This document shows, one piece after another, positions 2,545-12,168 of a DNA stretch of 64,000 nt. Origin of the DNA: Turicibacter sp. Lineage in GTDB: Bacteria; Bacillota_I; Bacilli_A; MOL361; Turicibacteraceae. The notes under the pieces were generated by a model. That model had not been told where the DNA came from. It did no database searches and worked only from the letters and a program-made list of their open reading frames with translations. The stretch spans positions 1 to 64,000 of the forward strand of contig WRGF01000220.1 of assembly GCA_009787345.1 (NCBI GenBank), written 5' to 3'. Both the position numbers and the translations under genes were made by a program. The first letter of the stretch is position 1. Each line of letters opens with the position of its first letter.

Positions 2545-3228
2545 ATGAACCATGTTTTAGTGATTGACGACGACCAAAACATCCGAAAATTGGTGGTGAC
2601 GGTATTGGAAAACGCCGGTTTTCGGGTGCTGGAGGCGGATAATGGGGAGGCCGCTTTGGATATTTTGTATGACCAGGTGGTCGATTTGTGCGTGGTGGAT
2701 ATTATGATGCCCGTCATGGATGGGCTGGCTTTTTGCAGGCAGGCGAGGCTTCAAAACGAGGATTTGCCCCTCTTGATGCTCACTGCCAAAAACGAGATGG
2801 GTGCCAAAATCGACAGCTACAACACGGGGGCGGACGATTATTTGGTGAAACCATTTGAGCCGGAGGAATTGGTGCTAAGAGCCCGGGCGCTTTTGAAACG
2901 GTATAAGAAAATCTGTGAACGGACGCTGAAGGTGGGCAACCTGACCATTGATGAAACCAGCAGCAGCGTCCTCATTGAAGGAAAACGCCAAGACATCCCC
3001 TTAAAAGAATTTGAACTGTTATTCAGGCTAGCTGGACAGGCAGGGAAAACCGTTTCCCGCAATGCCATCATCGAGGAAGTCTGGGGCTGGGACTTTGAAG
3101 GAAATGAACGGACCATTGATGTCCACATTGGAAGGCTTCGCACCCGCTTCCCAGCCGATACGTCAGGCATAAAAATCACCACAATCCGGGGCCTCGGATA
3201 CCGTTTGGAGGAAAGTCATGGAGGATAA
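2545..3228 (+). CDS. OmpR/PhoB-family response regulator
   Basis: 227-residue response regulator. The receiver domain (about 1-120) has the acidic pair in VIDDD (8-10), the phospho-acceptor Asp52 in VVDIMMPVMDG, and the conserved Lys in DYLVKPFEP. The C-terminal winged helix (about 130-222) ends in RTIDVHIGRLRTRF and the typical IRGLGYRLE. It would be phosphorylated by the histidine kinase encoded next, whose gene overlaps this one by 11 bases, and would then bind DNA. The SD GGGAGGTGG fits the ATG. No target is evident; a MacB-like ABC system lies 6 kb away, but a link is only speculation. Confidence 0.93.
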   Translation: MNHVLVIDDDQNIRKLVVTVLENAGFRVLEADNGEAALDILYDQVVDLCVVDIMMPVMDGLAFCRQARLQNEDLPLLMLTAKNEMGAKIDSYNTGADDYLVKPFEPEELVLRARALLKRYKKICERTLKVGNLTIDETSSSVLIEGKRQDIPLKEFELLFRLAGQAGKTVSRNAIIEEVWGWDFEGNERTIDVHIGRLRTRFPADTSGIKITTIRGLGYRLEESHGG

Positions 3229-4267
3229 GCATAAATTCCTAGTCCGCTTTATCTGTTGGGGCATTTTGCTGTCGGGCATTTCCCTGGTTATCGGGTATTT
3301 TATCCTGGACTTGCTTTTTTCCATTTGGGGAGAGCCGTCCCGTTTTAGCACTTTCGCTATTTTTTCAGGGATTTTCCTCCTTACTTTGCTTTGCCTGCTC
3401 AATGGGGGGATTGCCATCGCCAAGAAGTTTTTCAATTTCAGCGAGCACGAGCTGTGGCATCTCAATGTCATCAGTACCCTTAAAGCGATTTCCCAGGGGA
3501 ATTTCAATGTGACCCTTGAGGATGAAACTGGACGCTTGAAGGAACTGACCGATACCATCAACCATCTGGCGCGGGAACTTGGCAACCGGGAAGCCATCCA
3601 ACAGGAGTTTATCTCCAACGTTTCCCACGAGTTCCAGTCCCCCCTCACCTCCATCCGGGGTTATGCCAAGCTCCTTCGGGACGGGGCTGCCACCACCCAA
3701 CAACAAGAATATGCCGATATTTTGCTGGATGAAGGGCAACGGCTGTCCCGCTTATCGGAAAACTTATTGCGCCTTTCTGCCCTGGAAGCGTTGGAAGAGG
3801 TGCAAAAAAAGGAATTTCGCCTGGACCGGCAACTGGAGGACACCCTCTTGCTTTTGGAGCCCCAATGGTCTGAAAAAAGCATCAATTTGGATGTGGAATT
3901 ACCGAAAACATCCCTTGTGGGCGATGCGGAGCTGCTCAAGCAAGTGTGGATCAACTTGCTGACCAATGCTATTAAATTCACCGGGATTGGTGGGAATGTT
4001 TCCGTAAAATTAGCCCATGGATGCGGGGAAATCACCTGCGAAATCACCGACGACGGCATAGGAATCAGCCCTGACGACCAGCTCCGGATATTCGAGCGTT
4101 TCTACAAAGCGGACAAATCCCGGGAGCGCGCCCGTGGCGGGAATGGGCTAGGCCTTTCCATCGTCAAGAAAATCCTGAACATCCACGGGGCAACCATCCA
4201 TCTGGAAAGCGCACTCGGGAAAGGAACCCAGCTTAAGATTATATTCAAATCGTCTTTCAAGTTTTAG
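3218..4267 (+). CDS. membrane sensor histidine kinase
   Basis: 349-residue kinase partner of the preceding response regulator. Two membrane segments (about 10-33 and 44-66) are separated by only about ten residues, so there is almost no extracellular sensor domain. A HAMP-like linker (about 70-120) follows, then the dimerisation domain with H-box FISNVSHEFQSPLTSIRGY (phospho-acceptor His137), and a HATPase domain with N box (LLTNAIKF), G1 (DDGIGI) and G2 (GGNGLGLSIV). The tiny loop suggests it senses membrane stress, or works through a partner transporter as in intramembrane-sensing kinases. The ATG lies inside the regulator gene, preceded by TTTGGAGGAAAG. Confidence 0.92.
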   Translation: MEDKHKFLVRFICWGILLSGISLVIGYFILDLLFSIWGEPSRFSTFAIFSGIFLLTLLCLLNGGIAIAKKFFNFSEHELWHLNVISTLKAISQGNFNVTLEDETGRLKELTDTINHLARELGNREAIQQEFISNVSHEFQSPLTSIRGYAKLLRDGAATTQQQEYADILLDEGQRLSRLSENLLRLSALEALEEVQKKEFRLDRQLEDTLLLLEPQWSEKSINLDVELPKTSLVGDAELLKQVWINLLTNAIKFTGIGGNVSVKLAHGCGEITCEITDDGIGISPDDQLRIFERFYKADKSRERARGGNGLGLSIVKKILNIHGATIHLESALGKGTQLKIIFKSSFKF

Positions 4268-4311: not shown

Positions 4312-4342
4312 AAAAAACCCGTTGGACAGCAACGGGCTTTTA
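4312..4342 (-). terminator. terminator shared by the small RNA and the kinase gene
   Basis: AAAGCCCGTTG...CAACGGG followed by six T on the minus strand. On the plus strand the same stem is followed by CTTTT, so it probably also ends the two-component transcript. Confidence 0.8.
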
Positions 4343-4478
4343 GGTAAGAGTTTCTTTTATTAAACAAATGAAGGAGGATGAGCGGGCTTTTGCGCCCGTT
4401 TTGGATTAGAAGGCTAGCTTCTAACCTAAGACGGGCGTACAAGGGATATTTCCTTGCACTCCCACTCTGTCTTGCAAT
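4312..4478 (-). ncRNA. candidate small regulatory RNA with an anti-SD stretch
   Basis: Between the kinase and the MFS gene the minus strand has its own promoter (4485-4513) and an intrinsic terminator (4312-4342), defining an RNA of about 165 bases with no credible ORF. It can form a hairpin near its 5' end (GTGCAAGG with CCTTGTAC), then a larger one (GCCCGT...ACGGGC enclosing GGTTAGAAG/CTTCTAATCC). Between these and the terminator lies an apparently unpaired CTCATCCTCCTTCATTTG, complementary to SD sequences followed by ATG. Such C-rich stretches are used by trans-acting small RNAs of Firmicutes such as RsaE/RoxS. It does not look like 6S, tmRNA or SRP RNA. Confidence 0.55.
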
Positions 4479-4484
4479 AAACTC

Positions 4485-4513
4485 ATTATAACACAGTTTT
4501 TACCAAATGAAAA
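4485..4513 (-). promoter_or_regulatory. promoter of the candidate small RNA
   Basis: Read on the minus strand: -35 TTTTCA (4508-4513), a 17-base spacer and a consensus -10 TATAAT (4485-4490). It lies just after the stop codon of the MFS gene and leads into no ORF before the terminator at 4312-4342. Confidence 0.6.
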
Positions 4514-4536
4514 GGCTTTTTGGTAACGTTTTTAAT

Positions 4537-5685
4537 TTATTTTTGCCTAATCAAAAAAACAAAGAATAAACAGCTCAATATGAGCGCCCCGCCGATGGAG
4601 GCCATGCCATAGAAGATGCCGGCCCTTTCCGCGATGAAGCCGATGATGGCGGGCATGATGATAGCCCCTAGTGCTGCGCCCGTAAGGATGAAGCTCCACG
4701 ACAGGGGGTTCTCCTTGATGAGGGCACCGGCATAAGACACCACCGTAGGGTAAACGCCCGCCATGCTTAGGCCGAAACCGCTAATGCCGATGACGATGAA
4801 CGACGTTTGGGTAGCATTAATTAGAATAAGAAAAAAAATCAGCAAGCCTGCTCCCATGGCCAAAAGGAGCTTGTCCCTCGACACTTTGGTAGCGAGTAAT
4901 GCCGTGAGGAGCCTGCCGATCAGGATCATCACCCATAGCGCGCTGGCCATGATTTGCGAGAGTTCCGGGCTCAGGGCACCCATGCCGCGAAAATAGGTGA
5001 CGAGCCAACCGATGACTCCCTGTTCGGCGCCGAGGTAGAAAAAGAGGGTCAGTGTGACCAGCCAGAACGTAGGATTTTTAAGGAAGCTGCGGCTGAATGC
5101 TATTTTATTTCGGTTGATTGGAGCGACTTCCAAGGGGATAAATAAGTAGAGGAGCCAGCTTAAAAGCCCCGCTGCCATTAGGAAATAAAGGGCGTGTCGC
5201 CAATCCCGCCCGGCAAAGCCCATGACGATGAGGGGCATGGCAAAGGCGCCGATGGCGAACATGGAGTGAAGGCCGCTCAACAGCCATGCCTTGCCAGGTG
5301 CCAGTGCGTTGATGACCAGGTTGCAAAAGTTGCTGGTGGCCCCCCTGGCGATGCCGGTTAAAAGAAAGGAAAAAAGCAGCAGCCCTTCCCCCCGGGTCGT
5401 TAAAATCAAGAAAAATGCCAGGGCGTAACAGCTGTTGAACAACAGGATACTCTTTTTTCGGCCGATGTACTTGGGGAGGATTCCCGCCGTGAAGGAGGAA
5501 AACAGGTTCCCGACGGAGTGGAGGCTGACGAGAAGGCCCATGATGGGATAACTCAGTCCCCGGCTTTCCCGAAGGTATGGGAGGAGCGCCCCGATGGACA
5601 GGGCCAGGATGCCATTTAGGGTGAAAATCAAGTAGCTAAAAATGAATTGCCTGCGTTTTTGTGGGGTATTAAGGATTTCAGCCAT
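4537..5685 (-). CDS. MFS transporter
   Basis: 382-residue integral membrane protein with about twelve hydrophobic segments: a major facilitator superfamily transporter. The first cytoplasmic loop has the family motif in a degenerate form (GILPKYIGRKKSILLF). Overall character is like the FucP-type sugar/proton symporters and YfmO-like exporters, but the substrate cannot be read from sequence. The next operon downstream is the uronate pair uxuA-uxuB, separated by a terminator, so a role in sugar acid uptake is possible but not shown. The ATG at 5685 has the SD GGGGGATATTC and lies 8 bases inside the end of the upstream collapsed gene, suggesting translational coupling. Confidence 0.85.
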   Translation of the reverse strand: MAEILNTPQKRRQFIFSYLIFTLNGILALSIGALLPYLRESRGLSYPIMGLLVSLHSVGNLFSSFTAGILPKYIGRKKSILLFNSCYALAFFLILTTRGEGLLLFSFLLTGIARGATSNFCNLVINALAPGKAWLLSGLHSMFAIGAFAMPLIVMGFAGRDWRHALYFLMAAGLLSWLLYLFIPLEVAPINRNKIAFSRSFLKNPTFWLVTLTLFFYLGAEQGVIGWLVTYFRGMGALSPELSQIMASALWVMILIGRLLTALLATKVSRDKLLLAMGAGLLIFFLILINATQTSFIVIGISGFGLSMAGVYPTVVSYAGALIKENPLSWSFILTGAALGAIIMPAIIGFIAERAGIFYGMASIGGALILSCLFFVFLIRQK

Positions 5686-7592: not shown

Positions 7593-7800
7593 ACAATATA
7601 ACCCCGCGTTCATTGAAAGGGCGAAGAAAACCACTTCGCCCTTTCATGTATTTTAAAATTCAATTTTTGCCAAAGTTGCAGATTTACTTCTTGTGCAAAA
7701 CCTAATTGGAACTTGTGAAAGAAAAAAACGATGGCTTCTTTCCCTTTTCTCCTGCGATGCGCAAGCGAGCCCTCTGACGGGCAACATCAAAATCAGCGAT
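7593..7800 (-). other. uxuA-uxuB spacer with two hairpins
   Basis: The spacer holds a hairpin just before uxuB (AAAGGGCGAAG pairing with CTTCGCCCTTT, about 7617-7646). A long inverted repeat (7781-7798 with 7806-7823) has one arm lying in the last codons of uxuA. Neither has a T tract on the minus strand, so they look more like mRNA processing or stabilising elements than terminators. Confidence 0.5.
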
Positions 7801-9555: not shown

Positions 9556-12168
9556 TCAGTCATTCCCTTTAAGGGCACCCAACATGTCTACCTTTTTCAA
9601 CTTGGCGTGGACCATGAAACTTAGCAGCAATGTGGTCACTAAGGTGATGAGCGCCGACAGGAGATAATTCGTCCAAAGGATGGCAGGATCGAACATAACC
9701 TGGTCCGGAGGCAAGGTTAAAATAATGAAACGGTGCAGCATTTGTCCCAAAAAAATCCCCACGGCAATACCGATAATGGACAAAAAAATCGTTTCGCGGT
9801 AGATGTAGAGGGTGACTTCCGAGTGGTAAAAGCCCAGCACTTTGATGGTGGACAGCTCCCTTATCCGCTCGGACACGTTGATGTTGGTCAGGTTGTAGAT
9901 GACCACCACCGCCAAAAGTACGGCGCACCCGATGAGCACCACCATCACGGAGTCCATCCCGGCCAAGAACGAATTGATGTTTTCGATGACGAAGCGGTTT
10001 TGGCTGAGGGCAATGACGGACGCGGTATCCATGAAACGGACTAGGATTTCATCACCCACAGGCCCATTGAACCGCACCAAATTCCCATTTTCTTTGAAAG
10101 GAATGCTAAAAACCTCTTCGTACGTTTGACGTGACATGAATAGAAAGTGCCCTGTATACATCTCGGCAATCCCCCCCAAAACGAAGGTGATTTCTTCATT
10201 ATCGGCAGTTTGCAGCGTGAAGCTATCCCCCACGTTAAGGCCCATCATATCAGCTAGCTTTTCCGTTAACAGAACTTCACCAGAGTCAAGGGTCAGTGGA
10301 TTTTTGGAAACCCGTTCACGAAGGTCAACAAATTCCCCGAAGCTATCCACATCTTGCGGGACGATCAACGTGATGGTTTGGCGGGTTGTGCCATTCATAC
10401 GTCTAAGTTCCTGGACGTGGACCGGTTTGTAGTCGTGGATTTCAGGGGAAGCCAGCAACTGGGAAAGCCCTTCGCCATCCGCCTCGGGGTCTTGGATGGT
10501 GAGGATATCGTAGTTTATAATCTCCCCGAATTGACGGGCGGCGATGCCTGAGATGGAGTCCCGGATGCCGAAGCCCATAATGAGCAGGGCCGTGCAGCCA
10601 GCAATCCCGAAAATGGTCATGAGCATCCGTTTTTTGTACCGAAACAGGTTTCTGGCTGTCACTTTGGAGGTGAAATTAAGCCGCTTCCAAATAAAGGGCA
10701 GCCGTTGCAGCATGATTTTCCCACCGGCCTTCGGGGGTTTGGCTGCAAATAAATGGGACGGACGTTCACGAAGCACCCCGCCCACGACCCACATGGCGGA
10801 GCCGACGGTGCAAAGGATGGCGACCAAGAAGGCGGCGGCTGTCCAAAAGGGGGAGAAGGTAAGCCGCAAGTCCGTCAAAGTACTGGAAGCAGCGTATGCG
10901 TCAAATACTATCCGTGGCAAAATCAGGTGCCCGAGGATGGTGCCAAGAGCCGCACCCGCACTGGCAGACACCAGGCCATACACCCAAAATTTCTTGCGGA
11001 TGCTGGCATTGGGGTAGCCCAGCGATTTGAGGAGGGCGATTTGGCTGCGCTCCTCCTCCACAAAACGGGTCATGGTGGTCAAGGAAACGAGGGCGGCAAT
11101 GGTGAATAAAAAGACGGGGAATACGTTAGATAAGGTGTCGATGTTTTCGGAGTTTTCCAAGTAGGACTGGTAGCCGGGAAAGTTTTTGCGGTCGCCCACG
11201 GTGTATGCTGGGAGTGCCAAGTTATCCAATTCCCCTTGGTTTTCGGCTAGGGTTGACAATCCATCGGCAATTTGCTGGAGCCCATCCTCCACCTCGGCCA
11301 AGGCTTCCTGTAGGGCGGTTGGGGCTGGGTAGCCCGCTAAATCCAACTGGGAAATTTGTCCCGACAATTCATCGTAAGTTGCAAGCAAATCCCTTTGGGT
11401 GGCCAGCAGATCCTCCCTGGCCTGGCCGATTTCTTGTTGTGGCTCAATCTTTAACGCATCAAGGCGGTTTTGCGGCTGGTTTTTCAGAAGCGTTTCAAGC
11501 CCGGTTTGATGGGCTGCCGTCAATGGTTGGAAATTCGGGTCATAAGCCGACATCCCTGCTAAATTATCGAATGTGAGCCGGGCAATCATGTAAACATCGG
11601 AATCGAAATTTTCGGGGACGATGACCCCGAAACCGCTTAAATCCCCGGTCCCGATGTGCGTATGCCCATAATGGCTCCGGTCTAAAAATTCGCCGGACCT
11701 GACGAAGCCGACTACTTGGTAGGAAGTATCGCCTAGGGTGATGGCATCGCCAATTTCGAACTCCCCTTCCATTAGAAAATCGAGGGCGATTTCCCCAATG
11801 CTTACAGGCATTTCCCCGCTAATCACTTCATAAAGGGAAATGTTTTCGGGAGCGGAAAAGACCCGCAATGCCTGAAATGTCCCATTGATTAATTCATCCT
11901 TAAAGTAACCCAGTTCCAGCTCCCGGATGCCAGGGTAGGTCCGAATCAGCTCCACATCGGAACCATCGAGGCCATAGGTCGAGGCAATGGTAATTTGTGC
12001 TAAATTAAGCTCATCAAAAAACGTGTCCGCTGTCAACCGCATGTTAGGCCCTACCACTTTTAGCCCCACAAAAACGAACACCCCCAACGCCATCAGGCTG
12101 AAGATGGAAAAGAACCTTCCTTTGGACTTGGTGATGGTCTTGCGGATTTCTTTGTTCAATTTTTTCAT
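9556..12168 (-). CDS. ABC transporter permease with two FtsX domains
   Basis: 870-residue permease of the MacB/FtsX type. One membrane segment near the N-terminus (about 20-42) is followed by a large extracellular domain of about 300 residues with a Leu/Gln/Glu-rich coiled-coil stretch (about 240-320). The first FtsX domain is at about 350-470 (three membrane segments), a second extracellular domain at about 520-730, and the second FtsX domain at about 745-865. Such proteins do not import solutes; they work as mechanotransmitters or export peptides and lipids together with an ABC ATPase. That ATPase is encoded immediately upstream, 9 bases away. ATG at 12168 is preferred because TAGGTGG lies 5 bases ahead. 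Confidence 0.88.
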   Translation of the reverse strand: MKKLNKEIRKTITKSKGRFFSIFSLMALGVFVFVGLKVVGPNMRLTADTFFDELNLAQITIASTYGLDGSDVELIRTYPGIRELELGYFKDELINGTFQALRVFSAPENISLYEVISGEMPVSIGEIALDFLMEGEFEIGDAITLGDTSYQVVGFVRSGEFLDRSHYGHTHIGTGDLSGFGVIVPENFDSDVYMIARLTFDNLAGMSAYDPNFQPLTAAHQTGLETLLKNQPQNRLDALKIEPQQEIGQAREDLLATQRDLLATYDELSGQISQLDLAGYPAPTALQEALAEVEDGLQQIADGLSTLAENQGELDNLALPAYTVGDRKNFPGYQSYLENSENIDTLSNVFPVFLFTIAALVSLTTMTRFVEEERSQIALLKSLGYPNASIRKKFWVYGLVSASAGAALGTILGHLILPRIVFDAYAASSTLTDLRLTFSPFWTAAAFLVAILCTVGSAMWVVGGVLRERPSHLFAAKPPKAGGKIMLQRLPFIWKRLNFTSKVTARNLFRYKKRMLMTIFGIAGCTALLIMGFGIRDSISGIAARQFGEIINYDILTIQDPEADGEGLSQLLASPEIHDYKPVHVQELRRMNGTTRQTITLIVPQDVDSFGEFVDLRERVSKNPLTLDSGEVLLTEKLADMMGLNVGDSFTLQTADNEEITFVLGGIAEMYTGHFLFMSRQTYEEVFSIPFKENGNLVRFNGPVGDEILVRFMDTASVIALSQNRFVIENINSFLAGMDSVMVVLIGCAVLLAVVVIYNLTNINVSERIRELSTIKVLGFYHSEVTLYIYRETIFLSIIGIAVGIFLGQMLHRFIILTLPPDQVMFDPAILWTNYLLSALITLVTTLLLSFMVHAKLKKVDMLGALKGND

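Follow-up and report, generated by a model that had tools for sequence, protein, structure and literature searches.

What lies in the gap between two genes that run toward each other? In a 64,000-nucleotide stretch of DNA from Turicibacter sp. (the window, 48% GC, from a genome of 3.1 Mb in 221 contigs), an MFS transporter gene on the minus strand faces a sensor histidine kinase gene on the plus strand. A sequence-only reading of the space between them had proposed a small RNA gene, with a promoter, two hairpins, an unpaired 18-mer complementary to Shine–Dalgarno (SD) regions through to the start codon, and an intrinsic terminator. Is there such an RNA, and what would it do? A real transcript from 4478 to about 4312 is, on sequence grounds, highly probable. 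The full proposal, that it is an Hfq-independent trans-acting sRNA of about 165 nt with its own promoter and a CU-rich stretch that would block SD sequences, has in our view about an even chance of being right.

Architecture and complementarity to ribosome-binding sites

Table 1. Features of the locus and its surroundings, with the selO gene elsewhere in the genome
Feature	Position	Strand	Details
Response regulator gene, OmpR/PhoB-type	2545..3228	plus	
Sensor histidine kinase gene	3218..4267	plus	convergent with small RNA; best NCBIfam model PnpS, below cut-off
Intrinsic terminator	4341..4313	minus	A/U pairs on either side of stem 4336-4318; six T follow
CU-rich stretch AUCCUCCUU with anti-SD core CCUCCUU	4379..4371	minus	firmly single-stranded at 4379-4373, paired to about half at 4372-4371
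Junction hairpin 2, long arm	4436..4394	minus	loop CUAGC; from pairing probabilities
Junction hairpin 1	4459..4437	minus	8 bp; from pairing probabilities
Three-way junction	4467..4380	minus	closing stem 4467-4461/4386-4380, pairing probabilities 0.92-1.0
Predicted small RNA transcript	4478 to about 4311	minus	~165 nt; basis: fold, z, scan match
Predicted sigma-A promoter	4513..4485	minus	TTTTCA 4513-4508, 17-nt spacer, TATAAT 4490-4485, TG extension
Inverted repeat, perfect, 8-bp	4500..4526		TTACCAAA-N11-TTTGGTAA; overlaps -35 element
MFS transporter gene	4537..5685	minus	directly upstream of predicted small RNA, same strand
selO gene (Pfam SelO)	L089:257-1655		start region pairs over SD and start codon, 10+8 bp, 6-nt bulge

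The proposed size of about 165 nt, with a promoter and an intrinsic terminator, agrees with the unit we computed, 4478 to about 4312 on the minus strand (no strand had been given before). The transcript 4478-4311 has a folding energy of -59.6 kcal/mol. Against dinucleotide shuffles the whole transcript has a z-score of -5.2 and the 5′ junction domain, taken without the terminator, one of -6.1, so most of the folding stability resides in a three-way junction. Both of the hairpins seen earlier are present, but they do not stand free; they are arms of this junction, which is closed by GAGUGGG pairing with CCCGCUC. The unpaired 18-mer, CTCATCCTCCTTCATTTG (4382-4365), survives only in part. Its ATCCTCC (AUCCUCC in the RNA, 4379-4373), some 7 nt long, is single-stranded (pairing probability ≤ 0.15) and is the only firmly unpaired stretch between domains, but the CTC with which it begins (4382-4380) lies inside the closing stem (0.92-0.95), and TTCATTTG is about 50-70% paired in a weak helix, one A excepted. 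The terminator, whose loop reads CTGTC, forms with a pairing probability of about 1. We found no credible open reading frame in the transcript. The longest closed frame starting inside it has 18 codons' worth of amino acids (18 aa) and no SD, longer frames starting within it run into the terminator, and a 21-aa frame begins at 4486, upstream of the predicted transcription start.

The exposed core and the SD consensus of this genome are complementary. Of 419 sampled starts, 155 have GGAGG in the preceding 40 nt; the genome uses SDs of the GGAGG type. The earlier claim went further, extending the complementarity across the spacer to the AUG. Here the anti-SD core is indeed exposed, but its flanks add nothing over shuffled controls. 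Across the 419 start regions the mean duplex energy was -14.63 kcal/mol, versus -14.62 in 60 controls in which the core (CCUCCUU) was fixed and the flanks were shuffled, and in 51 of those 60 the mean of the top 20 was as strong as or stronger than that of the real RNA. Only against full shuffles, in which the core is lost, did the real RNA do better (2 of 60 controls were as low). Because the core-fixed controls equal the real RNA, it is an anti-SD core, and not a tuned 18-mer, that accounts for the complementarity.

Individual candidates went the same way. The start region of selO ranked second of 1086, at -28.5 kcal/mol; we rejected it as target evidence, given that the best energy in each of 150 core-fixed shuffles averages -29.8, in a comparison that favours this locus (selO was added after a whole-genome pattern search, and the controls saw the sample only). 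The top-ranked start region (-30.3) was matched by 58 of the 150 controls and was set aside as well. Six start regions of neighbouring genes are ordinary, at -16.4 to -21.8 kcal/mol. In the whole genome, 49 sites nearly match the stretch's complement (27+22, versus 9+8 for the reversed pattern). Of these, 29 were examined, the others being the exact match, which is the locus itself, and 19 matches without a locus; few of the 29 lie before a start and most fall inside frames. The supposed targets are indistinguishable from chance.

One could then ask whether the SD complementarity is beside the point. A real stand-alone RNA whose function lies in the junction (binding a protein or a ligand, or serving as a sponge), with CCUCC incidental, would suit both the concentration of folding stability there and a target complementarity that, beyond the core, stays at control level; in the intergenic sample, a length of 168 nt contains CCTCC about 0.29 times on average. 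Yet CCUCC sits exactly in the only firmly unpaired stretch between domains, the longer CCTCCTT is rarer (0.06 times per 168 nt), and no Rfam family matches. We consider this possible, though unlikely. We prefer SD targeting; what makes it plausible is that the anti-SD core lies in the one stretch that is firmly exposed.

Evidence for a separate transcription unit

The promoter is of the extended -10 type, with TG present and 10 of 12 matches to the consensus boxes, and it puts the predicted transcription start near 4478 on the minus strand. Alone it is unremarkable, since promoter-like sites occur here at chance level (1 found versus 1.1 expected). We therefore counted a combination instead: a promoter and, 60-350 nt downstream, an intrinsic terminator, both in intergenic DNA. 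A scan of 464 kb gave 7 matches in 158 intergenic regions, versus 0, 0, 0, 0 and 1 in five shuffles. Extended to 1.22 Mb, with 368 intergenic regions, it gave 13, where 20 shuffles averaged 0.35; in both scans the direction is safe and the exact numbers call for caution, because a simple ORF heuristic for the gene calls makes the intergenic regions approximate and the promoter thresholds were chosen after seeing this feature. Rfam RNAs coincide with 6 of the 12 other matches (6S, SAM, cspA, two T-boxes and rli28). Among the 13, the feature studied here stands lowest in folding z (-5.4); only it and 6S RNA lie between convergent genes, where one does not expect a downstream gene's leader. With the combination well above chance, a real small-RNA gene is likely; on promoter, terminator, fold and coding potential alike, the original proposal of a stand-alone gene has held up.

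An rli28 match (a Listeria sRNA family), above the gathering threshold at 65.7 bits, underlies the scan match at L169:15515-15694 (+) and is unexpected so far from Listeria. Three more units, at L156:18691-18880 (-), L150:2861-3084 (+) and L141:8405-8737 (+), all strongly folded with z of -4.7, -3.8 and -3.8, have no Rfam match and are other candidate RNAs or leaders. Within the window itself, a strong hairpin (7614-7646) covers the listed start (7634) of a fructuronate-reductase-like ORF, whose real start is therefore probably further in.

Might the transcript belong to its neighbour? The promoter begins only 24 nt behind the stop codon of the MFS gene, on the same strand, and we found no other minus-strand terminator from that stop to 4336. 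The RNA could thus be the tail of the MFS mRNA, a structured 3′ UTR with its terminator, either with no independent function or processed into a 3′-UTR sRNA. An extended -10 promoter lies in between, however, placed where it would suit a separate start, and a promoter followed by a terminator is rare by chance; we think this quite unlikely.

On the other side is the kinase. The sequence-only reading had placed the RNA after the two-component system and suspected a regulatory link. In fact the genes converge on the RNA from the opposite strand instead of preceding it on its own, and the link found no support beyond proximity. The terminator hairpin, read on the plus strand, can also end the kinase mRNA, which gives the two transcripts a common bidirectional element at their 3′ ends, as might be expected if the RNA controlled the kinase gene by cis-antisense or convergent transcription. 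But 44 nt separate its predicted 3′ end from the kinase stop codon, so that, as long as termination works, the two can overlap in the 3′ UTR only, and such control is improbable.

A chance combination that is never transcribed would fit a feature seen in a single genome, with promoter-like sites at chance level when taken alone; the shuffles of the 1.22-Mb sample (mean 0.35 versus 13 seen) and a fold z far below shuffles make it very improbable. Barely credible is a type I toxin-antitoxin-like arrangement, in which a 37-aa plus-strand frame (4378-4491) with a hydrophobic C terminus, preceded by an SD-like AAGGAGG and covered at its start by the minus-strand RNA, would be the product, with that RNA regulating it in antisense: there is no spacing (0 nt) between the SD-like stretch and the ATG, no plus-strand promoter was found, and the class and phylum draws of genomes hold no copy elsewhere.

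The perfect inverted repeat over the -35 element of the small-RNA gene may be an operator. It is the sole perfect copy genome-wide, and copies with 2 mismatches are no commoner in the genome than those of a reversed-pattern control, with no clear sister sites.

Known families, relatives and distribution

By its sequence the RNA has the general features of a trans-acting, intrinsically terminated sRNA: promoter, terminator, stable fold, no ORF and an intergenic place. Which one is it? Rfam at gathering thresholds gives no match in the whole window, and a search of the small RNA stretch to E 10 gives a best E of 0.7, which we took as chance. The earlier impression that it fits no known small RNA is borne out. 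Neither 6S RNA nor another housekeeping RNA matches here. The 6S RNA (RF00013) of this genome is on contig C219, at 77.5 bits; it resembles our feature in being intergenic, with a promoter, a terminator and a similar size, and in lying between convergent genes in this genome, but the RF00013 model finds nothing at the small RNA locus. Contig C219 carries, besides 6S RNA, a second 6S-like place on the same strand, 3.6 kb away and just below cut-off at 45.5 bits (G000:C219:6472-6672 and 10232-10345; L084, L085). The predicted RNA is an orphan, of a familiar general kind, in no described family, and not 6S.

Membership in the RsaE/RoxS group, whose targeting strategy had been invoked, gained no covariance match: the RsaE model (RF01820) finds nothing in this genome at E ≤ 1, although the control is an imperfect one, with just 1 of 14 genomes above the cut-off, and the family is absent from the Rfam matches to E 10 at the small RNA stretch. 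The likeness lies in a C-rich stretch complementary to G-rich mRNA sites. C-rich regions are described for RoxS (PMC5419742). RNAs of this group have several single-stranded C-rich (UCCC-type) regions and answer to a redox two-component system, whereas here there is one exposed UCCUCC on a three-way junction; the sole UCCC (4446-4443) is half within the stem of hairpin 1. The LhrC study states that CU- or C-rich motifs act on SDs in LhrC, RsaE, SprD and FsrA, and that LhrC of Listeria monocytogenes acts on lapB without Hfq (PMC4132741). LhrC shares with our candidate a stem-loop, a single-stranded stretch, a terminator and a CU-rich motif, which in LhrC pairs with mRNA near the SD and here would do so. 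It differs in having five gene copies against a single copy here, in carrying UCCC in loop, linker and terminator loop (here the linker has UCCUCC and the terminator loop CTGTC), and in its dependence on LisRK, a two-component link having no support here beyond proximity; Rfam gives the candidate no match. Most likely the RNA would work like LhrC or RsaE (PMC4132741, PMC5419742) and be a member of neither. A search for Hfq (PF17209) in this genome, which is 99.7% complete, gave no match, with a control positive in 5 of 14 genomes.

How far does the RNA reach? Its own genome has one copy. A DNA search of 60 genomes, own included, matched 0 of 7 other family members at E ≤ 0.01, and neither did a covariance model in the same 8 family genomes (0 of 7 others), a model built from a single sequence that reaches close relatives only. 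The best of these others (E 0.025) was matched at a terminator; G004 and G007 gave short matches (E 0.9 and 0.25). In a class draw of 395 genomes, searched with the covariance model under the stricter filters that apply above 40 genomes, the 1 genome matched was our own, with a second match at the same place on the other strand. A phylum draw of 392 genomes, which overlaps the other draws, was searched at the DNA level and gave 3: our own and two short matches (26 and 36 bases) that we took as chance, L003 being by eye an apparently coding stretch and L149 an SD-like region. Matches in L120, L123 and L012 were rejected as homologues because they are terminators. Eleven named genomes yielded no homologue, the matches outside our own genome being short; short too were those at 80 loci around histidine-kinase relatives (L051 and L068 included) and in plasmids and phages (E 0.01-0.7), and viral contigs scanned for one exact 20-mer gave no homologue. 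With no homologue in the other genomes searched, there is no covariation to draw on. The genomes searched include no congener, so absence from them says little about the genus. The named relatives of the histidine kinase are mostly Bacillota. The MFS gene has a weak 24% match in 1 of 5 family members searched and no close relative there, making the locus itself lineage-specific. On this sequence evidence the small RNA is most likely narrowly distributed.

How the RNA would act

From a gene anatomy established computationally we infer transcription, action on mRNAs and repression. A minus-strand promoter of its own, behind the MFS gene, would drive an RNA of about 165 nt that ends at its intrinsic terminator. 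A rigid three-way junction and the terminator would protect its two ends and, between them, present AUCCUCC, a short CU-rich segment that runs on in part into UUCAUUUG. The segment would pair with the SD of one or more mRNAs and so block ribosome binding, without Hfq.

There is a bolder version. The exposed UCAUCCUCCUU equals, but for one inserted base, what we take to be the 3′ tail of 16S rRNA, UCACCUCCUU; the sampled sequence of this genome contains no 16S end. The RNA might then be a copy of the ribosome's own mRNA-recognition sequence mounted on a rigid junction, a broad competitor of the 30S subunit for strong SDs. This is a long shot; if true, it would make the RNA a general translation damper, not a single-target regulator, in a lineage without detectable Hfq.

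At present the SD-blocking RNA that we favour is one more orphan sRNA prediction. If transcribed, it would be a well-delimited sRNA candidate with no Rfam family, from a poorly sampled Firmicute-like lineage in which Hfq is not detectable, and its single exposed anti-SD stretch would make it a simple test case for Hfq-independent blocking of SDs.
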